From positions 1 through 39,602 of the forward strand of contig JAJSAI010000029.1 of assembly GCA_024274695.1 (NCBI GenBank): DNA of 39,602 bases, written 5' to 3'. The DNA comes from an archaeon (GTDB taxonomy: Archaea > B1Sed10-29 > JAJSAI01). Each line of letters opens with the position of its first letter. Position 1 is the stretch's first letter. The notes beneath the pieces are model-generated. The model did no database searches and was not told the DNA's origin. It saw only the letters and a list, made by a program, of their open reading frames with translations. A program made the translations under genes and the position numbers. This document shows positions 6,494-21,352 of the stretch, piece by piece.

Positions 6494-7128
6494 AGCCCAC
6501 CGTGTACGCGGACCATAGGGAAAGGAACTCCAGCGTGCTGCCCCTGCTTAAAAAGGAGGCGATCGTGATCCTGAGGAACCTTGAAGTCGGTGACTACGTG
6601 CTGTCAGAAGACGTGGGGGTGGAGAGAAAAACCGCGGCTGATTTTGTCAGTTCAATAATAGACGGCAGGCTGTTTGACCAGGTGAAAAGGCTCAAGGAAG
6701 CGTATCCCAAGCCCCTAGTCATAATAGAAGGGGACCCCTACTATCTTGGCAGGGTGCACGAAAACGCTATACGCGGGGCCCTTTCTCACGTTATCCTGGA
6801 CCAGGGGGTCCCGGTTTACTTCTCGCGGAATGAGGCTGACACGGCCAAGACCCTTGCGCTCATTGCCAGGAGGGAACAGGAGGAGAACGCGCGGCCTGTC
6901 AGGGCAAGGCCGGGCAAGAAAGCCGTCACGATCAGGGACTACCAGAGGATGATAGTAGAATCACTTCCGATGGTGGGCCCCAAACTCGCGGACCAACTTC
7001 TTAAAAAGTTCGGGAGCGTTCAAAAAGTGTTCAACGCGCGGGCCGACGAGCTGATGCAGGTTCCCGGCCTGGGCAAGAAGAAGGCAGAGGAGATAAGGAG
7101 GGTCATAACTGAAAGGTATGATGCTTGA
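6490..7128 (+). CDS. XPF/ERCC4-type structure-specific nuclease with tandem HhH
   Basis: Structure-specific endonuclease equal to the C-terminal half of Hef. The 212-residue protein has the XPF active site: GDYV (34-37), then VERK (44-47) and a DFVSSIIDGRLF segment (51-62). A tandem helix-hairpin-helix DNA-binding region follows at about 150-205 (MVGPKLADQLLKKFGS and VPGLGKKKAEEI). Translation starts at a TTG that overlaps the TGA of the helicase gene (TTGA), so the two are probably translated in a coupled way and may form the two halves of one enzyme. A short positively charged linker (RPVRARPGKK) connects nuclease and HhH. Alternatively it could act alone, as crenarchaeal XPF does with PCNA. 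Confidence 0.92.
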   Translation: MKPTVYADHRERNSSVLPLLKKEAIVILRNLEVGDYVLSEDVGVERKTAADFVSSIIDGRLFDQVKRLKEAYPKPLVIIEGDPYYLGRVHENAIRGALSHVILDQGVPVYFSRNEADTAKTLALIARREQEENARPVRARPGKKAVTIRDYQRMIVESLPMVGPKLADQLLKKFGSVQKVFNARADELMQVPGLGKKKAEEIRRVITERYDA

Positions 7129-7825
7129 CAGGCAGAGGAGGGTCCTGGGAGAAGAGCTTGACAAGGTAAGGGCGAGAAAAGTGTGCGTGGTCGGGGTGGG
7201 AGCAATAGGCTCCAGCATAGCTCTGAACCTTGCCAGGAACGGCTTTGAACGGCTCGTGCTAGTGGATCCTGACAAGGTTGAGGAAGAAAACCTAGGAACC
7301 CAGGAGTACACGAGAGACCATCTTGGTATGAACAAGGTTGACGCTCTCGCGGGGATTATCAGGAGGATAAACCCAGAAGCTAGAGTTCGTGCGGTGCCCG
7401 AAAGATTCCAGCAGGCTGGAAAGAAGGTGCTAGAATGCGACGTCGTCCTTGACGGGCTTGACACCATGAGGGACCGGTTTGAACTGAACGCGCTTGTCAG
7501 GCGGGGCGGAGGGGAGTACGTGATGGCCGCCTGCGCGGGACTCTCGGGGATGACGGCGTACTTCAGTAACACCTGTCTGGAGTGCGTGTTCCCTGACAGG
7601 AAAGTTGCAGAAACAGCATGCTCCCCAGGAGTGTGTGATACCAACATAAGAGCGATAGGCGTGCTCCCTGAAACCGCCCGGACCGCTGCAGCGCTCGCCA
7701 CCAGCCTGCTCATTACAGGACAGAAGGACGTGCTGGTAGGGTTCGGTATAAAAACAGGGAGCATGGAAAAGATAAGGCTCAAAAAAAGGACAGGCTGTCC
7801 TGTCTGTGGGCAGAAGGTGGAATAA
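7118..7825 (+). CDS. E1-like adenylyltransferase (ThiF/MoeB/HesA family)
   Basis: Adenylylates the C-terminus of a ubiquitin-like or sulfur-carrier protein. The 235-residue protein has the nucleotide-binding GVGAIG (26-31), the acidic LVDPDKVE segment near 49, and the DGLDTMRDRFELN pattern that matches the family's DxxDxxxxRxxLN. Two CxxC pairs (CLEC and the C-terminal CPVC) probably bind structural zinc as in MoeB. The start ATG overlaps the nuclease stop by 11 nt and the stop is one base before the SepRS ATG. No sulfur-carrier gene is visible next to it. Adjacency to SepRS, and to IscS/SufS just downstream, makes a role in sulfur relay attractive, but the partner is unknown. Confidence 0.87.
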   Translation: MMLDRQRRVLGEELDKVRARKVCVVGVGAIGSSIALNLARNGFERLVLVDPDKVEEENLGTQEYTRDHLGMNKVDALAGIIRRINPEARVRAVPERFQQAGKKVLECDVVLDGLDTMRDRFELNALVRRGGGEYVMAACAGLSGMTAYFSNTCLECVFPDRKVAETACSPGVCDTNIRAIGVLPETARTAAALATSLLITGQKDVLVGFGIKTGSMEKIRLKKRTGCPVCGQKVE

Positions 7826-7826
7826 A

Positions 7827-9401
7827 ATGTGGGATCCTGAAGAAGTGAAACGCAAGGCCTCTGAAGACTTTGAGAAAGCATGGGTTGAATACTCCAGCGC
7901 GCTCTCACAAGCCAAGGGAAACGTCGCGCTCAAAGAAAAGGGGGACCCCCATCCTCTGGAAGAACTTCGGCAGGACGTGAGAAGAGCATTCCTCAAGAGA
8001 GGGTTCGAGGAAGCGATAAACAAGACAATAATAGACGTCTCTCACGTTTTCATGCAGTACGGGCCAGAGGCCCCCGTAATCCTTGACAGGATATACTACT
8101 TGGCAGGTCTTGAAAGACCGGACATCGGCTTGTCTCCTGAAAAAAAGAGGGAAATAGAAAAAATAATCCCAGGGTTTTCAGGCTACGAGAAACTGCAGGA
8201 GATACTCAGGGAGTACAGGGAAGGTAAAATAGAGGGAGATGACTTTCTGGAAGAACTGGTCACCAAGCTGAAAATAAAAGAGGAGCAGGCTTCAGAACTC
8301 GTGTCTAAAGTGTTCAAGGAATTCGCGGAACTAAAGCCAGTTCCCAGCACTCAGACCCTGCGGTCGCACATGACCGCAGGATGGTTCATAACCCTGCAGG
8401 AGGTCCTCAAGAAGCGATTCACTCCCGTGGCCCTGTTTTCCATAGGGTATAGGTTCAGAAGAGAACAGAAGGAGGACGCCAGGCACCTCAGGGTGCACCT
8501 GGGGGCCTCGGCTGTCATAGCCCACGAGGACATGAACCTTAAGAGGGGAAGGGAGATAACCCGGAGCATACTCGAGGAAATAGGGTTCAAGGAAATAGAG
8601 TTCGTGAAAAAGAAGGCCACTTCCAAGTACTACGCTAAGGGAATGGAAGAAGAGGTGTACGCAAGGCACGGCAAGAGAAAGGTTGAAGTGGCTGACATAG
8701 GCATGTACTCTCCAATAGCCCTGTCGAACTATGGGATAGATGTGCCCGTGTTCAACCTGGGAATGGGGCTGGAGAGAATAGCCATGATAAAGTACGGGTA
8801 CAAGGACGTCAGGGAGCTCGTCTACAGGCAGGCCCTAGCCCCGTTCCTGCTCACAGACCACGAGATCGCGGATCATATAGGAATACACCGGCAGCCGAGC
8901 ACTTCCGAGGGCAGACTGCTCGCTAAATCAGTTTCAAAGGCAATACTGGACTACGGGAACGCTAGAGCGCCTGTCAGGTACAAGGCTTTTGACAGGGACA
9001 TGGGAAAGTATCATGTCACAGTATGGCTTTCAGAAAAGGAAGAGGGGAAGAGCCTGTGCGGGCCCGCGGCCTTGAACGAGGTGGTGGTCTACGACGGGAA
9101 CGTGCTCGCGCTCCCTCCAGGAGGAGGCGCTTTCCAGAATGATCTCGTGAAGACCGCTCTGGAGAAGGGAGTTCATACCAAGATCTTCTTCAGGGACGCC
9201 ATGGGCTGCTACGCGGCCTGGGTCGCGGAGAACATGAAAGAGGGACGGGAAACAGTGCAGTTCAAGAACGTGAAGTCAGCATCTGACATAAACATTCACG
9301 TGCACCCGCTGGTCCAGAGGTACGTCACGGCTCACAAGAAAAGGCTCTCCATTAAGGGGCCTGTGTTCGTGACCATAGAAATAGAGAAGGAGAGAATATG
9401 A
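7827..9401 (+). CDS. sepS: O-phosphoseryl-tRNA(Cys) synthetase (SepRS)
   Basis: Class II aminoacyl-tRNA synthetase that charges tRNA(Cys) with O-phosphoserine, the first step of tRNA-dependent cysteine synthesis. The 524-residue length matches SepRS (about 530-540). Visible features are the N-terminal DPHPLEELRQDVRRAF segment, the HMTAGW motif 1 region (181-186), motif 2 (FRREQKEDARHLRVHLGAS, 210-228) and motif 3 GMGLERIA (312-319). The C-terminal part carries the tRNA anticodon-recognition region. The ATG at 7827 is preceded by GGTGG at an SD spacing of about 7 nt and follows the E1-like stop by one base. The 3' end overlaps the GNAT-like gene (ATGA). Its partner SepCysS is encoded 6 kb away on the other strand. 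Confidence 0.95.
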   Translation: MWDPEEVKRKASEDFEKAWVEYSSALSQAKGNVALKEKGDPHPLEELRQDVRRAFLKRGFEEAINKTIIDVSHVFMQYGPEAPVILDRIYYLAGLERPDIGLSPEKKREIEKIIPGFSGYEKLQEILREYREGKIEGDDFLEELVTKLKIKEEQASELVSKVFKEFAELKPVPSTQTLRSHMTAGWFITLQEVLKKRFTPVALFSIGYRFRREQKEDARHLRVHLGASAVIAHEDMNLKRGREITRSILEEIGFKEIEFVKKKATSKYYAKGMEEEVYARHGKRKVEVADIGMYSPIALSNYGIDVPVFNLGMGLERIAMIKYGYKDVRELVYRQALAPFLLTDHEIADHIGIHRQPSTSEGRLLAKSVSKAILDYGNARAPVRYKAFDRDMGKYHVTVWLSEKEEGKSLCGPAALNEVVVYDGNVLALPPGGGAFQNDLVKTALEKGVHTKIFFRDAMGCYAAWVAENMKEGRETVQFKNVKSASDINIHVHPLVQRYVTAHKKRLSIKGPVFVTIEIEKERI

Positions 9402-9943: not shown

Positions 9944-10348
9944 TCATCCTCCATCCTTTTGGCTAGAATGCTTTTCAAGGTACTTTTTCAGTCCCTTGTG
10001 CAGGGCCTCTGCCGCGAGGCTGGAACAGTGTAGTTTTACCTTGGGCAGTCCCCCCAACTCTTCGGCAACGTCCCTTGAGGTTATCTTCAGCGCTTCTTCT
10101 ATGGTCTTCCCTTTTACCATGTCCGCCAGGACGTCGCTGGTGGCGATAGCGCTGACGCAGCCGAAGGTCTGGAACTTCACATCCTTTATTCTGTTCCCTT
10201 CAATCTTCACGTACACCGTCATCATGTCCCCGCACACAGGGTTTCCCACGGTCTCCTTAATGTCAGCGTCAGGAATCTCGCCAAGGTTCTTAGGATTCCT
10301 GAAGTGCTCGAGCACCTTTTCGGAGTAAAGGCTTGCGATTGATAACAC
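9944..10348 (-). CDS. iscU: IscU-type Fe-S cluster scaffold
   Basis: Scaffold on which [2Fe-2S] and [4Fe-4S] clusters are assembled with sulfur from a cysteine desulfurase. The three ligand cysteines are in their family contexts: NPVCGD, TFGCVSAIATSD and LHCSSLAAEA. The core begins at LYSEKVLEHFRNP, where most relatives have MYSEKV. No ATG is available: a GTG at 10348 gives seven extra residues and starts 8 nt after the iscS stop; a longer GTG start at 10375 overlaps iscS. The GTG at 10348 is preferred but uncertain. The protein ends in a short charged tail (EKHSSQKDGG). It lies directly downstream of the IscS-like gene, the usual partner. Confidence 0.92.
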   Translation of the reverse strand: MLSIASLYSEKVLEHFRNPKNLGEIPDADIKETVGNPVCGDMMTVYVKIEGNRIKDVKFQTFGCVSAIATSDVLADMVKGKTIEEALKITSRDVAEELGGLPKVKLHCSSLAAEALHKGLKKYLEKHSSQKDGG

Positions 10349-10356
10349 CCCCTGAA

Positions 10357-11514
10357 TTATTCCTCCGGCCGCCACGCGGATATTTTCCTGAGCCTTTCCA
10401 CTACCTCAGGGATTTCTCTCAGCATGTAGTCAACATGTTCCTCATTATTGCTCTTTCCAAGGCTTATCCTGAGGGACCCGTTCACGTCCTCTGGCTTGAG
10501 GCCTATTCCCAGGAGAACGTGTGACGCCCGCAGGTTAGGCGAGGAGCACGCGGAGCCTGTGGACACTATTACCCCTTTGGCGTCAAGCAGGGCCACCATA
10601 GCCTCTCCCTCCACGTACCTGAAGGAAACGTTCAAGTGGCCGGGTATCCTGTGAACCTCATGCCCATTAAGCCAGGAGTGTGGCACGTCAAGGAGTTCCA
10701 GCAGAGGCTTCTCAAGTTCCCTGAGCCTTTCAGCCTCCTTTTCCATCTCCTTTGCCCTGATCTCAGCGATCTTCCCAAGCCCTATGATTGCGGGCACGTC
10801 AGGCATGCCGCTCCTGAGCCCGTTCTCCTGCCCGCTGCCGAATATGATCGGGTCAACAGAGACTCCTCTTCTTATGTACAGTCCTCCAGCTCCTTTTGGC
10901 CCGTACGTTTTGTGGCAGGTTACTGAAACAAGGTCTGCCGGAACCTTTTTCAGGTCCAGTTCTATCTTGCCGAAGGAGTAGCAAGCGTTCAGGTGGAACA
11001 CTGTGTCATGCTCCTGGCACAGCCTCCCTATCTCCTTTATGTCCTGCACGGTCCCTATCTCCACGTTAGCGTGTCCGATGGACACCATCAGCGCTCCTTT
11101 TTTCAGTTCTTTCTCAAGCTCTTCCAGTACCACTCTCCCGGTGTTGTCTACAGGGACCTTCACCACCTCGAACCCTTCTCTCTCCAGCTGTTCAAGAGGC
11201 TTTAGGACGGACCCGTGCTCTATTCCAGTGGTGATGATCCTCTTGGACTTCCCTTTGTTCCTTCTCGCGTAACCGAGGATCGCGAGATTGTTTGCTTCCG
11301 TGCCCCCCGAAGTGAACACAAGAGAACCTTCTGGAGCGTTAAGGAATTCCAGGACCTTTTCCCTGCTTTTTTCAATAGCCTCTCTGACCTCGTACCCTCT
11401 GTTGTAGAACAAGCTGCTCGGGTTAGCGAACTTTTCAGAAAAGTATTCTCTCATCGCGTTTTCTACCTTTGGGTCTAAGGGTGTCGTGCTAGCGTGGTCT
11501 GCGTAGACGAACAT
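10357..11514 (-). CDS. iscS: IscS/NifS-like cysteine desulfurase with altered PLP pocket
   Basis: Fold-type I PLP enzyme of the NifS/IscS family, expected to release sulfur from cysteine for IscU. The 385-residue protein keeps the PLP lysine (K202 in TCHKTYGPKG), the ring-stacking histidine (H100 in IEHGSV) and the persulfide cysteine C323 in STGSACSS. Three other PLP contacts differ from E. coli IscS: N155 is V151, the pyridine-binding D180 is N176, and Q183 is Y179 (local sequence HLNACYSFGK). The codon at the Asp position is plainly AAC. A TATA-like box at 11537-11547 lies about 28 nt before the ATG, implying a leaderless iscS-iscU transcript. Whether it is a full desulfurase is open. Confidence 0.9.
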   Translation of the reverse strand: MFVYADHASTTPLDPKVENAMREYFSEKFANPSSLFYNRGYEVREAIEKSREKVLEFLNAPEGSLVFTSGGTEANNLAILGYARRNKGKSKRIITTGIEHGSVLKPLEQLEREGFEVVKVPVDNTGRVVLEELEKELKKGALMVSIGHANVEIGTVQDIKEIGRLCQEHDTVFHLNACYSFGKIELDLKKVPADLVSVTCHKTYGPKGAGGLYIRRGVSVDPIIFGSGQENGLRSGMPDVPAIIGLGKIAEIRAKEMEKEAERLRELEKPLLELLDVPHSWLNGHEVHRIPGHLNVSFRYVEGEAMVALLDAKGVIVSTGSACSSPNLRASHVLLGIGLKPEDVNGSLRISLGKSNNEEHVDYMLREIPEVVERLRKISAWRPEE

Positions 11515-11559: not shown

Positions 11560-12771
11560 TCACCTGACTTTCAAGGCCCTTTTGAGCGCGGGCTCGAAAG
11601 CGTTGAAGAACTCGTCAATGTCCTCCTGCGTTACTACGTATGCTGGAGCGAGCCGTACTCTCTTCTTGCCCGCGGGTAGCACGAGCACGTTCCTCTTGTA
11701 CAGTTCCTGTACAAGAGCATCCCTGGCCCTGGCAGAGTGCAGGCTGAATCCTATCATGAGCCCGAGGCCGTCAATCTTGGAAATGCTGTCCGAGTACTCG
11801 TGCAAGCGTTCTAGGATTCCTCTCCCGATGTTCTTGATCCTCCCAAGGAGCTTCTCCTCCTTGATCACCCTAATGGTTTCGGCACCTACGGCCATTGATA
11901 TGATGTCCCCGCCTCCGAAGGTGCTTGACATCCCTCCTTCTGGAGGGAACAGTTTCCGGTTGGCCATCACCGCACCCACCTGAAGGCCTTTCGCGCTGGT
12001 TATAATGTCAGGATCAACCCCGTAGTTTTGTATCGCCCACCATTCCCCTGTCCTGCCGAGACCTGCCTGCACTTCGTCCGAGATGATCAGCATCCCTTCT
12101 GAACTGGCGATCTGCACCACTTCCCTGAGCCACATTCCCGCAGGAATGTATCCTCCTTCCCCCTGCACGGGTTCTAGTATAAGGAAGGAAATGTTTTCCG
12201 CACCTTCCTGCGAGAGTATCCTGTCCATTTCAAGCACAGAGTCAGGGCTGAACGGTATTCTCAGGGCTGGAAGGGAAGGGAACCTGTTCTTGTGCACGCT
12301 TTTTGAGTTCGTCAGACTGAGAGCCCCCAAAGTCCTGCCATGGAACGCGTTCTCGAAGGAGACTCCCATGAACCCCCTTCGGTTGTAGAATGCGATTTTC
12401 ACGGCGTTCTCCACCGCCTCGGCGCCAGAATTGCACAAGAACCCTGCGTTAATGCCCCTCGGGGTCACGCTGACCAGTTCCTGCAGTAAGTCCAGGTGCT
12501 CTTGCACGTAAAAGTCCTGTCCTGCGATTTTCACAGGCGCTCTGCCAGAGTATTCTTTCACGACCTCCAGAAGCCGGGGGTGGTTGATCCCGAGGGGAGC
12601 GGTGCACAGCAGGGAGGTCATGTCCAGGAAAATGTTTCCGTCAATGTCCTCCACGTGACACCCTTCACCTTCTCCTGAGAGGACTATCGGGTATGGGAGA
12701 GCGTGCCCCCCGTTAAGAAGCTTCATTCTCTTCACGAAGCCCTTGGTCCGAGGCCCTGGCATGCTTTTCAT
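11560..12771 (-). CDS. Class III PLP aminotransferase (GABA/ornithine aminotransferase-like)
   Basis: Fold-type I, class III aminotransferase of 403 residues. Visible are the N-terminal HALPYPIVLSGEG segment, the CNSGAEAVENAVKIA phosphate-binding region, the SDEVQAGLGRTG stretch with the PLP-ring aspartate, and the PLP lysine in TSAKGLQVG; STFGGGD follows near 290. Relatives act on 4-aminobutyrate, ornithine/acetylornithine, or racemise amino acids; the sequence does not decide which. It has its own TATA-like box 28 nt upstream of the ATG, so it is probably a separate leaderless unit between sufS and iscS. A role in supplying an amino acid for the neighbouring cysteine genes is possible but unsupported. 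Confidence 0.85.
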   Translation of the reverse strand: MKSMPGPRTKGFVKRMKLLNGGHALPYPIVLSGEGEGCHVEDIDGNIFLDMTSLLCTAPLGINHPRLLEVVKEYSGRAPVKIAGQDFYVQEHLDLLQELVSVTPRGINAGFLCNSGAEAVENAVKIAFYNRRGFMGVSFENAFHGRTLGALSLTNSKSVHKNRFPSLPALRIPFSPDSVLEMDRILSQEGAENISFLILEPVQGEGGYIPAGMWLREVVQIASSEGMLIISDEVQAGLGRTGEWWAIQNYGVDPDIITSAKGLQVGAVMANRKLFPPEGGMSSTFGGGDIISMAVGAETIRVIKEEKLLGRIKNIGRGILERLHEYSDSISKIDGLGLMIGFSLHSARARDALVQELYKRNVLVLPAGKKRVRLAPAYVVTQEDIDEFFNAFEPALKRALKVR

Positions 12772-12861: not shown

Positions 12862-14082
12862 TCATGCTCCGCGCAGCACTCCAAGCACTTTCTTGAACGT
12901 GTCCACGAACGTCTCCGCTTCCTCAAGGGTGTTGTAGAAGTACACTGACGCCCTAACACTTCCTGGAACGTCATGCGCGTTAAACCAGGAGTGCACGCAG
13001 TGCCTTCCAGACCTCACCTCTATGTTCGCGGTCTCGTCCAACGCGATTGCTATGTCATGAGGGTCTGCGCCTTCAACAACAATGCTTACTATCCCGCTCC
13101 TCTGCCTTGGGTCCGAGGGGCCCAGTATGCTTACTCCTGGAATGTCCTGAATGCTTTCTGTGATCAGCTTGTTTATCTCGTACTCCCTCTTCTCAATGTT
13201 CTTGAACCCGATCCTGGAAACGTATTCCGCGGCAGCACCTGCTCCTATCATGCCAGCATAGTTCTGCAGGCCGGCCTCAAACTTTTCAGGAGGTGGCAGG
13301 AACTCAAACCTGTCGTACCAGGCATCCTTGACCGTGTCCCCCCCTACTATGAACCCGTCAATTTCCTCCAAAAGCTTTTTCTTGCCGTAGAGCACCCCGA
13401 CTCCTGTGGGGCCGCACATCTTGTGAACGGAGAACGCGAGGAAGTCCACGTCAAGCTCTCTGACATCAACCTTGTGATGGGGTGCTGTCTGGGCGGCGTC
13501 AAGCATCACGAGCGCTCCGTGCTCGTGAGCTTTCTTCACCACCTCCTTGGCTGGAATGGTGTAGCCGTCAAGGTTGCTGGTCCATACCATGCTCACGAGC
13601 TTTACTCCCTGCTCCAGTTTCTCCTCGTACGCGCCCATGTCAAACGTTAGGTCAGGATTGCTCGGAACATAATCATGCCTTATTCCCTTCTTTTTTTGCA
13701 TGAACAGCCAGGGCACAAGGTTTGAGTTATGCTCCCTGTCTGTTGTCAGCACTACATCCCCTGGTTTCAGGTCCAGGGCGTATGCCACAAGGTTTATTGA
13801 CTCTGACGTATTCCTCGTGAAAATGATCTCGTGCTCGCTGTGCGCGTTCACGTAATCTTGGATGATCCTGCGCGCTTTTTCAACCTCCTCCTTTGTTCTG
13901 TTAGCGAGCTTGTGAATGCTCCTTCCGGTTACCGATGAGTACTCGTAGTAGTACTCGTTCATCTTCTCCACGACCTGCCTCGGTTTGAGGGTCATGGCCG
14001 CGTTATCAAAGTATATTATCGGTTTGCCATAGAACCTCTTCTGGAGGATCGGGAAGTCATTCCTGCAGTCGTCCAAGCTCAT
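12862..14082 (-). CDS. sufS: SufS/CsdA-type cysteine desulfurase
   Basis: Group II cysteine desulfurase that takes sulfur from cysteine for Fe-S cluster or thiolation pathways. All key residues are present in 406 residues: YFDNAAMTL at the N-terminus, H118 in TDREHNS, D195 and Q198 in MLDAAQTA, PLP lysine K221 in FSVHKMCGP, and the persulfide cysteine C362 in RSGRHCVHSW. It thus contrasts with the neighbouring IscS-like enzyme, whose pocket is altered. No sufE, sufB, sufC or sufD gene is adjacent. The gene is divergent from the helix-turn-helix repeat protein at 14167, and a minus-strand TATA-like box near 14110-14117 is about 30 nt before its ATG. Confidence 0.93.
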   Translation of the reverse strand: MSLDDCRNDFPILQKRFYGKPIIYFDNAAMTLKPRQVVEKMNEYYYEYSSVTGRSIHKLANRTKEEVEKARRIIQDYVNAHSEHEIIFTRNTSESINLVAYALDLKPGDVVLTTDREHNSNLVPWLFMQKKKGIRHDYVPSNPDLTFDMGAYEEKLEQGVKLVSMVWTSNLDGYTIPAKEVVKKAHEHGALVMLDAAQTAPHHKVDVRELDVDFLAFSVHKMCGPTGVGVLYGKKKLLEEIDGFIVGGDTVKDAWYDRFEFLPPPEKFEAGLQNYAGMIGAGAAAEYVSRIGFKNIEKREYEINKLITESIQDIPGVSILGPSDPRQRSGIVSIVVEGADPHDIAIALDETANIEVRSGRHCVHSWFNAHDVPGSVRASVYFYNTLEEAETFVDTFKKVLGVLRGA

Positions 14083-14166: not shown

Positions 14167-15186
14167 TTGCCGGAGGAGGAAATTGAAAGGGAACTGAACG
14201 CTTTAATGGACCTAATAAAATGGGACTGGGAGAAAGGGGAATATAACAAGAAAAAAGTGGTGCACAGGGCCCTTTCCATCCGGGCAAAACACCATATTCC
14301 TGTGGATCAGATTCTGCTGGAGCTGGCCTCACGGGTTAAGGATGATGACATGCTCAGGGAGAGGATCCTGGAGCACGTAGACAGCCTCCTGGAGCGCAGG
14401 GCAATAGAAGAAAGGGTCAAAGAAAGAAGAAGGCTGAAGGAGAGTGGCGAAAAACGTGAGAGGAAGGGAGCGAAGATCATCGGAGAGAGGAGGGCAGTGT
14501 CCGATGAGGAACTGGTGAAAAAGCACGCCGAGCTGGCGGAAAAGCTAGGCAGGCCGCCGACAGAAGGAGAACTGTCCGCTGCTCTGGGAGGAAGGATTTC
14601 TCCGACGAGAGCCCTTAGCAGGATCACGTCCCTTGGCCTAGCGTACCCTAAATTCTCCTCTTCAACAGAGGAAGAATACGCCAACATTCTTAAGGAAGAA
14701 CACGAGGCCCTAAAGAAAAAGCTCGGCAGGCTTCCCACTAAAGAAGAGTTATACGGCAGGCTTCAGGAGAGAGGCATTCCCCCTTACAGGCTTAGGGGGA
14801 GAAAGTCTCTAGCCAATAAGACCTTGAAAGAACTGGAGTTCTACACGCCCTCTGAAGCACTATACCACGACCTGAACAAGAACCCCCGGAGATTCCTGAA
14901 GGAGGTTTTCAGGCAGCCTAAAGTAAGACGAGACTATCCAGTCATAAGAAACGCGTTTGAAAGCCTTGTCGTGGATCTTGCCAGGGATCTTGGAAGGATA
15001 CCCACGAAAAGAGAACTCGCCGGAGAGATAGGGATAAGCGTGAACAGACTGTCTGAGTTCTTGAGAGCCTGGGGTCTTAGCAAGGAGATCCCTTCAAGCA
15101 TTGACTACAAGAGGGCCCAGAGGGAAACCCGCAGGATAAGAGAGATGTTCAGGGAATACATCCAGGGAAAACGAAGAGGAAGGTAG
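14167..15186 (+). CDS. Unrecognised protein with three LGRxPTxxEL (HTH-like) repeats
   Basis: A 339-residue, highly charged protein that I cannot assign to a named family. The first about 110 residues are helical, with a basic/acidic coiled-coil-like stretch at 75-105. Three repeats follow, at about 119-160, 180-212 and 268-302, each with an L(x)LGRxPTxxEL core and then a helix with an arginine-rich second half. The pattern resembles small helix-turn-helix units such as those seen in sigma-factor-like or homeodomain-like DNA-binding proteins. The C-terminus is basic (QGKRRGR). Start is a TTG preceded by GGTGAG, and a TATA-like TTTTTAATA lies at 14128-14137. It converges on tRNA-Ala(CGC) and may be a chromatin or transcription protein. 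Confidence 0.75.
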   Translation: MPEEEIERELNALMDLIKWDWEKGEYNKKKVVHRALSIRAKHHIPVDQILLELASRVKDDDMLRERILEHVDSLLERRAIEERVKERRRLKESGEKRERKGAKIIGERRAVSDEELVKKHAELAEKLGRPPTEGELSAALGGRISPTRALSRITSLGLAYPKFSSSTEEEYANILKEEHEALKKKLGRLPTKEELYGRLQERGIPPYRLRGRKSLANKTLKELEFYTPSEALYHDLNKNPRRFLKEVFRQPKVRRDYPVIRNAFESLVVDLARDLGRIPTKRELAGEIGISVNRLSEFLRAWGLSKEIPSSIDYKRAQRETRRIREMFREYIQGKRRGR

Positions 15187-15290: not shown

Positions 15291-16460
<1,170 letters not shown>

Positions 16461-19972: not shown

Positions 19973-21352
19973 TCACCTTATTCTCCACAACGTGCCGAAC
20001 CGTGTGTCCTTTACGTCCAGTCCCGCGTTCCTGAGGGTGTCCCTGATCTTGTCCGCTTTTTCGTAGTCTCCTGCTTTTCTTGCTTTGTCCCTTTCCACGA
20101 GCAGCCAGCCGACGATGCTTGAAATAACCCTGTCCCTGTCAACGCTTCTGGGCAGGATTCCGAGAATCGTTCCAGCTGTCCAAACGAACTCCTTCAAGGC
20201 TTTTTTGCTCTCCTGGTCCAGGCCTCCCTCGTCTTCGGTGAGACTGTTGGCCTTTTTAAGCGTTTGTATTAGTACTGAGACTGCCTTGGGAGTGTTCAGA
20301 TCGTCGTCCAGCGCTTTTTCAAATTCATTCATCGCGTTCCTTACTTCGTCAACCATCCTCGCGCTCCCTTTTCCTGCTTCCACCAGGATCAGAGAGTCAT
20401 ATATGTAAGACAGTGTTTCCTCCGCTTGCTTGAGCCCTTTTTCTGAATAGTCCATTTCTGACCTGTAGTGCGACATGGCGAAGTACAGTCTCAGGGCTTC
20501 AGGCCGGTGGTTTTCAAGCACGCTTCGGATGGTCACGAAGTTGCCGAGTGACTTGGACATCTTCCTGCCTTCCACCAGCAGGAGACCAGTGTGGACCCAG
20601 TACTTCACCAGCGGTTTTTTGCCAGTGTATGCTTCAGCCTGGGCTATTTCTGCTTCGTGATGCGGGAATGCTAGTTCTATCGCTCCCCCGTGAATATCGT
20701 ACTGGGGACCGAAGTAGGTTACTGTTATTGCGGTGTCCTCAATGTGCCATCCTGGCCTGCCCCTGCCCCAGGGAGAGTCCCATGATATTTCTTCTTCTTT
20801 CCTTTTCCAGAGTGCGAAATCAGCAGGATTCCTCTTTTCTGGGTCAGGTTCTATCCTGTGGACGTTCATTTCCTCTGGTTTTTTTCTCCCGAGCTTTCCG
20901 TAGTCCGGGAACCTGCTCACGTCGTAGTATACATTGCCTGACTTGGTCACGTACGCGTACCCTTTTTTAAGAAGCCCCTCCACCTGCTCTATTATTTCTG
21001 GGATGTGTTCTGATGCCCTTGGAAAAAGGTTTACTGAGTTGATGTTCAAGGCTTTCATGTCCTTCATGAACTCTTTTTCGTATTTCCGGGCGAGGTCAAG
21101 AGGCTTTATTCCTTGCTCTCGGGCCCGTTTTATTATCTTATCATCAACGTCAGTGATATTCATCACGTAGAATACTGTGTGTCCCTTGTGCCTAAGGTAC
21201 TTTGCCAGGGTGTCGTAGTACGAGTACGTCCTAGCATGCCCCACGTGACTGTAGTCGTATACTGTGGGACCGCACACGAACATGTTCACCCTCCCGGGGT
21301 GGATTGGCACGAACTCTTCCTTTTGTCTTGTGAGCGTGTTATACAACCGCAT
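19973..21352 (-). CDS. cysS: Cysteinyl-tRNA synthetase (CysRS)
   Basis: Class I synthetase joining free cysteine directly to tRNA(Cys). The 459-residue protein has HVGH (36-39, HIGH motif) and KMSKS (264-268). Of the four zinc ligands known in E. coli CysRS, C27, H231 and E235 are conserved, but the position of C209 is D206 (WHIEDTAIT instead of WHIECSA). The change is clear in the DNA (GAC). The gene follows tRNA-Cys number 2 by 32 nt, with AAGGAG in the spacer as SD, and runs into copB and sor with almost no gaps. It coexists with the SepRS/SepCysS route in the same region, a redundancy known in a minority of archaea such as some Methanosarcina. Confidence 0.96.

Follow-up and report, generated by a model that had tools for sequence, protein, structure and literature searches.

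The closest solved relative of the protein described here, the IscS of Archaeoglobus fulgidus, has no desulfurase activity because Asp replaces its PLP lysine; its Cys is a ligand of the cluster on IscU (PMC7585200). M. acetivorans IscS1 is likewise without the PLP lysine (PMC7585200). In tyrosine phenol-lyase, a fold type I enzyme, removal of the Asp at the PLP ring nitrogen (D214A) is reported to cause loss of ring-nitrogen protonation and lower activity (PMC6411801). We analyzed a 39,602-nucleotide stretch of archaeal DNA (the window) that encodes an IscS in which the lysine is kept and the Asp at the ring nitrogen is replaced by Asn. Few residues of fold type I enzymes are as strongly conserved as this Asp. 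The window IscS is a real, unusual variant of a known family. Since most of its PLP-holding residues are changed and the catalytic ones are kept, it probably supplies sulfur to iron-sulfur clusters as a weakened or retuned donor, not an ordinary one.

The window iscS gene and its neighbors

The host genome is a 0.83 Mb archaeal assembly that is 91% complete. The genes on the minus strand follow the order SepCysS, (opposite-strand gene), SufS, class III aminotransferase, iscS, and an overlapping iscU. The features of the region are:

7118..7825, plus strand: ThiF/MoeB-family adenylyltransferase, adjoining SepRS (PF00899)
7806..9401, plus strand: SepRS, O-phosphoserine-tRNA ligase (TIGR00470, 473 bits, over the cut-off)
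9944..10375, minus strand: IscU scaffold, with the Cys motifs NPVCGD, FGC, and LHC and the Asp kept (TIGR03419, E 2e-53; PF01592, E 6e-46)
10357..11514, minus strand: iscS, 385 aa, an IscS/NifS-family class V (fold type I) PLP protein with an altered PLP pocket
11560..12771, minus strand: class III aminotransferase, between sufS and iscS (PF00202)
12862..14082, minus strand: SufS-family cysteine desulfurase in which the catalytic motifs (His, Asp, Gln, Lys, and Cys) are intact (TIGR01979, 443.5 bits)
14167-15186, strand opposite to SepCysS and SufS and located between them: ORF with HNH-repeat and sigma-70 region 3-like matches
15291..16457, minus strand: SepCysS, Sep-tRNA:Cys-tRNA synthase, with N-x-x-Y (TIGR02539, 545 bits, over the cut-off)
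19973..21352, minus strand: CysRS, the direct route (TIGR00435, 499 bits)

Read on the minus strand of the window, the iscS ORF has an ATG start and 385 codons uninterrupted by stop codons. Profile searches gave 236.5 bits with PF00266 and, with TIGR03402, an E-value of 1.5e-124 and 415.6 bits, which is below the equivalog cut-off of 530.75. The nearest solved structures by sequence are those of A. fulgidus IscS (E about 1e-110). An AlphaFold model, for which the input was the window IscS and 26 archaeal relatives, reached a pLDDT of 93.6 and a pTM of 0.92, and its best Foldseek matches were A. fulgidus IscS and IscS-IscU entries (TM 0.93-0.96). By homology and fold, the window protein is a member of the IscS/NifS sequence family. 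A search of GTDB contigs for its near kin returned four remote matches (37-42%) and nothing closer. Its branch in the tree is the longest of 142, at 1.04 compared with a median of 0.23.

The iscSU pair is present, with an intact iscU that overlaps the end of iscS (10375 vs. 10357), and SepCysS lies 3.8 kb from iscS in the same gene region. No SufB or SufD was found in the 91%-complete genome. The locus unites all the candidate parts for sulfur supply to iron-sulfur clusters and SepCysS. In both the window SufS and the SufS of genome G015, Leu replaces the usual Thr of the FEAGT motif.

SepRS/SepCysS and CysRS are found together within 40 kb, although this archaeal genome is very small. Across the phylum, true SepCysS was seen in the host genome only, so it may have been acquired by transfer here or lost from the other genomes. 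Five genomes of the same class (G012, G013, G015, G014, and G016; loci L186-L190) encode SepRS-like proteins, four of them full length, that score 104-329 bits with TIGR00470; these genomes lack SepCysS. Where the Sep pocket has Asn-X-Gly (FNLG in the window protein), the five proteins have other residues (MSFV, FCAS, FVFE, AIFE, VIFD), and the motif is likewise replaced in SepRS-like proteins of Thermoplasmata (PMC8762117). In several archaea (L166, L167, L174-L178), IscS adjoins a SepCysS of a second type, PRK09331, which scores about 400 bits with TIGR02539.

Residues of the PLP pocket

Residue numbers refer to E. coli K-12 IscS, taken from NC_000913.3 and aligned to the window IscS. IscS structures show N155 and Q183 as the contacts of PLP O3', D180 as the ring-nitrogen contact, and T243 of the other subunit as a contact of the PLP phosphate. 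The relevant residues of the window protein, all on the minus strand, are:

11062..11064, minus strand: V151 (GTG), E. coli N155V, PLP O3' contact lost; Asn in 94/94 canonical archaeal IscS
10987..10989, minus strand: N176 (AAC), E. coli D180N, partner of the PLP pyridine nitrogen; Asp in 134/141 archaeal IscS
10978..10980, minus strand: Y179 (TAC), E. coli Q183Y; Tyr unique to the window IscS among 141
10804..10806, minus strand: M237, E. coli T243M; Thr in 94/94 canonical archaeal IscS
10834..10836, minus strand: S227, E. coli G233S; Gly in 94/94 canonical archaeal IscS
10909..10911, minus strand: K202, E. coli K206, PLP Schiff-base lysine, kept in the alignment
11215..11217, minus strand: H100, E. 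coli H104, catalytic His, kept in the alignment
10546..10548, minus strand: C323, E. coli C328, persulfide Cys, kept; invariant in 141/141 archaeal IscS
10468..10470, minus strand: R349, E. coli R354, substrate-carboxylate Arg, kept in the alignment

An earlier, sequence-only reading of the window had claimed the changes N155V, D180N, and Q183Y and the retention of the PLP lysine, His, and persulfide Cys. The alignment with E. coli IscS bears out all of these (codons GTG, AAC, and TAC; K202, H100, and C323) and reveals two further changes, T243M and G233S. Simple sequencing errors are unlikely because N155V and Q183Y each require at least two nucleotide changes. H205 and T76 are also kept, and S203 is replaced by Thr. 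The conserved residues that contact the PLP ring and phosphate in this family (N155, D180, Q183, and T243) are absent, with V, N, Y, and M in their place, and the Schiff-base lysine, the catalytic His, the Arg for the substrate, and the persulfide Cys are all present. The window IscS differs at all five of N155, D180, Q183, T243, and G233, which are invariant in the 94 canonical archaeal IscS, a set chosen for having N155, D180, and Q183. It deviates at 16 of 84 highly conserved columns; the canonical members deviate at a mean of 3.0 and a maximum of 10.

The positions of D180 and Q183 form an N-x-x-Y motif in the window SepCysS (NAAY), in 2e7i (NGAY) and 3wkr (NCAY), and in the SepCysS of other genomes. 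N176 and Y179 match this motif in all SepCysS examined, which agrees with the earlier claim that they are shared with the SepCysS encoded nearby. The window IscS and the window SepCysS also have in common a Met at the T243 position. Only the Tyr is an informative match to SepCysS because Asn is the sole alternative seen at position 180. In aspartate aminotransferase, the ring-nitrogen residue D222 is followed at +3 by Y225; by analogy, a Tyr at +3 of the ring-nitrogen residue is a plausible functional stand-in for Gln183. The N/Y match is real, but to call the pocket SepCysS-like was an overstatement: the window protein retains the Arg that binds the substrate and the Cys that bears the persulfide in IscS, and it shows no sign of gene conversion from SepCysS. 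We rejected gene conversion or recombination from SepCysS since the DNA similarity is no longer than chance matches. With TIGR02539 the window IscS scores 39 bits, far below the cut-off of 365.25 for SepCysS.

Altered IscS proteins in other archaea

We surveyed 394 archaeal genomes, of which 190 had an IscS-type match, and extracted 141 sequences, all archaeal, from all but about 49 of the 190. D180, claimed to be nearly universal, is indeed Asp in 134 of the 141, and N155 is present in 116. The V/N/Y set was found in no other IscS among the 141 archaeal sequences, the window protein standing alone, and its absence from ordinary archaeal IscS is as expected in the earlier reading. The suggestion that the set marks a clade found with SepRS/SepCysS had to be dropped: it is missing in the 12 other IscS of the phylum and in 128 further archaeal IscS. 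These 12 full-length proteins are canonical at 155, 180, 183, and 206, except for that of G012. Every near relative of the window IscS lacks the full altered set.

D180 is replaced in seven of the 141 sequences, and the replacement is always Asn. All seven come from SepCysS-encoding genomes (7/60 sequences, vs. 0/81 in other genomes), and the tree requires three separate origins. Calculated from the survey counts, the association has a p of about 0.002 when sequences are counted; counted by origins, three of three would occur by chance in about 8% of cases. The link between D180N and SepCysS is suggestive at best, a lead and not a result, as three origins are too few for proof. The IscS of genome G259 has D180N in an otherwise canonical pocket, with four deviations, and scores 559 bits, above the cut-off of the NifS model; its relatives in the same order all have Asp.

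A dedicated search extended the D180N clade to ten genomes (loci L228-L237, e.g. in G368 and G073; families f38 and f23), with 66-83% identity to the G368 member. All ten proteins carry H104N, N155D, D180N, Q183A, and G233Y and keep K206, T243, C328, and R354. Asn and Asp are thus swapped between positions 155 (O3') and 180 (ring nitrogen). Several of the genes adjoin IscU, SufS, ThiF, or SepCysS, and SepCysS is encoded by each of the five clade genomes that the SepCysS survey covered. Since N155D/D180N is fixed in a ten-genome clade, Asn180 can be a stable state of an IscS and is not an error. K206, R354, and C328 are kept in every D180N IscS found, that is, in the window, in G259, and in the ten clade genomes. 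These natural Asp-replaced IscS (three lineages, one of them a stable ten-genome clade) are ready variants for studying the electron-withdrawal needs of cysteine desulfuration.

K206 is lost in 29/141 archaeal IscS. All 23 proteins of the K206D, K206R, and K206S groups have lost R354 as well, and D180 is always kept. The lysine-less groups have 11-23 conserved-column changes, and the 16/84 of the window IscS is equally high. In more archaeal IscS groups the PLP lysine is Arg, Thr, or Ser (loci L140, L141, and L154 in G101, G242, and G081; L158, L159, L161, and L162; L152 and L156), with Cys328 kept in all. The IscS of G012 (L171:8648-9820), a genome of the same class as the host, has K206L, H104R, N155P, Q183S, and a changed T243. 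Its gene stands next to those of IscU and SufS, genes for a SepRS-like protein and a cysteine synthase are close by, and the SufS is 51% identical to the window SufS. Common descent of the window IscS with this K206L protein is doubtful (AU test, p 0.067 against; the tree placement differs).

SufS is carried by 17/27 genomes with solely non-canonical IscS and by 44/104 others (p 0.08), and sufS is in proximity for at least 7 of 148 IscS, of both canonical and non-canonical kinds. On these counts, SufS presence is not established as the explanation of IscS pocket loss.

C328 is unchanged in 141/141 archaeal IscS, every group included, so the Cys-based role is the most conserved role of IscS. 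The survey shows more than one rebuilding of archaeal IscS (the Asp180 type and the lysine-less type) with the persulfide Cys constant throughout, and this constancy supports a role of IscS on IscU beyond PLP chemistry.

Candidate roles and comparison with known systems

We estimate at about 0.5 the probability that the window IscS is a divergent but PLP-binding enzyme with a weakened electron sink, which would partner the IscU of the overlapping gene as a slow desulfurase or as a persulfide or cluster-ligand partner. PLP would form a Schiff base with K202, and the substrate would be an alpha-amino acid, most likely cysteine. Asn in place of Asp at the ring nitrogen would lower its protonation, carbanion/quinonoid intermediates would be less stabilized, and desulfuration would be slow. 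Tyr179, like Tyr225 of aspartate aminotransferase, could supply one lost O3' hydrogen bond. Cys323 would carry a persulfide to IscU or serve as a ligand of the nascent cluster on IscU. The main desulfurase is likely the intact SufS two genes upstream, whose presence may have left the IscS pocket free to drift. The window IscS keeps K206, H104, R354, and C328, all D180N IscS keep K206, R354, and C328, and R354 is lost in the K206D, K206R, and K206S groups; the window IscS therefore looks still selected for amino acid binding. Also in favor of this explanation are the intact, overlapping iscU, the invariance of C328, the intact SufS in the same gene run of a genome in which no SufB/D was found, and the reported loss of ring-nitrogen protonation in tyrosine phenol-lyase D214A (PMC6411801). 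T243M and G233S, further losses near the phosphate that might abolish PLP binding, count against it. Together with the very long branch and the changes at 16/84 columns, they would fit functional decay.

A protein without PLP chemistry could still be a scaffold like A. fulgidus IscS that takes no sulfur from cysteine, with sulfide or SufS as the source and the Cys as a ligand or relay on IscU. A. fulgidus IscS is the nearest solved protein by both sequence and fold, and it is reported to be inactive with its Cys as a cluster ligand (PMC7585200). The commonness of lysine loss among archaeal IscS (29/141) also speaks for a scaffold, as do the conserved-column loss, which is as high as in lysine-less groups, and the same-class G012 IscS, in which K206 and H104 are gone and whose gene adjoins that of a SufS related to the window SufS. 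However, descent from a common ancestor with the G012 protein is doubtful, as noted above, and K206, H104, H205, and R354 are all present in the window IscS, whereas the K206D/R/S proteins have invariably lost R354. We consider a PLP-dead scaffold rather unlikely. At the other extreme, the G259 protein, with its canonical pocket and its score above the NifS cut-off, indicates that D180N alone may be tolerated, and the window IscS could then be an ordinary, fully active cysteine desulfurase with neutral substitutions. This is quite unlikely, given that the changes hit together five positions at which the 94 canonical proteins never vary and that loss of the equivalent Asp reduces the activity of another fold type I enzyme (PMC6411801).

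The enzyme might instead have been retuned toward SepCysS-like beta-elimination or beta-replacement, e.g. on O-phosphoserine or in sulfur supply to SepCysS. It shares N and Y with all SepCysS examined and M at T243 with the window SepCysS, which is encoded only 3.8 kb off, and 7/7 D180N sequences are in SepCysS genomes. The Asn is weak evidence, however, being the sole alternative to D180 and having three origins; the other D180N groups carry A or Q at 183, not Y; and the Cys loop and IscU pairing of IscS are kept, with no gene conversion with SepCysS. Such chemistry seems improbable to us. A wider proposal is that Asn180 IscS is a recurrent adaptation to tRNA-dependent cysteine synthesis, in which PLP enzymes would be retuned from free-cysteine desulfuration, for example to relay sulfur between IscU, SepCysS, and either SufS or sulfide, or to use O-phosphoserine as a substrate. 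We regard this as a long shot.

The preferred weakened, PLP-binding partner of IscU can be set beside four known or newly found types. Canonical IscS/NifS proteins (E. coli IscS, M. acetivorans IscS2) have the same fold, K206, H104, R354, C328, and IscU neighbor, but the five cofactor-site residues that are invariant in the 94 archaeal members are altered in the window IscS. SepCysS (TIGR02539; 2e7i, 3wkr) is also a class V/fold type I protein, in which Asn and Tyr correspond to D180 and Q183; it is without the IscS Cys loop and IscU pairing, both of which the window IscS has. The D180N clade resembles the window IscS in having D180N with K206, R354, and C328 kept, and it differs by H104N, N155D, Q183A, G233Y, and the retention of T243; the identity is about 38-42%, and the origin is separate.

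A. fulgidus IscS (PDB 4eb5, 4eb7, 4hvk, 4r5f) had been put forward as the precedent for an altered archaeal IscS. It is a documented one (PMC7585200), but its change is the opposite. Both proteins are archaeal and have an IscU partner, an altered PLP site, a Cys loop, and a SepRS/SepCysS organism as host. The A. fulgidus type, which is recognized by K206 replaced by Asp together with the loss of R354, lost K206, H205, and R354 and kept D180. The window IscS is the reverse: it has the Lys and the Arg, and it lost D180, N155, Q183, T243, and G233. Judged by these residues, it is a different kind of altered IscS from the A. fulgidus type.
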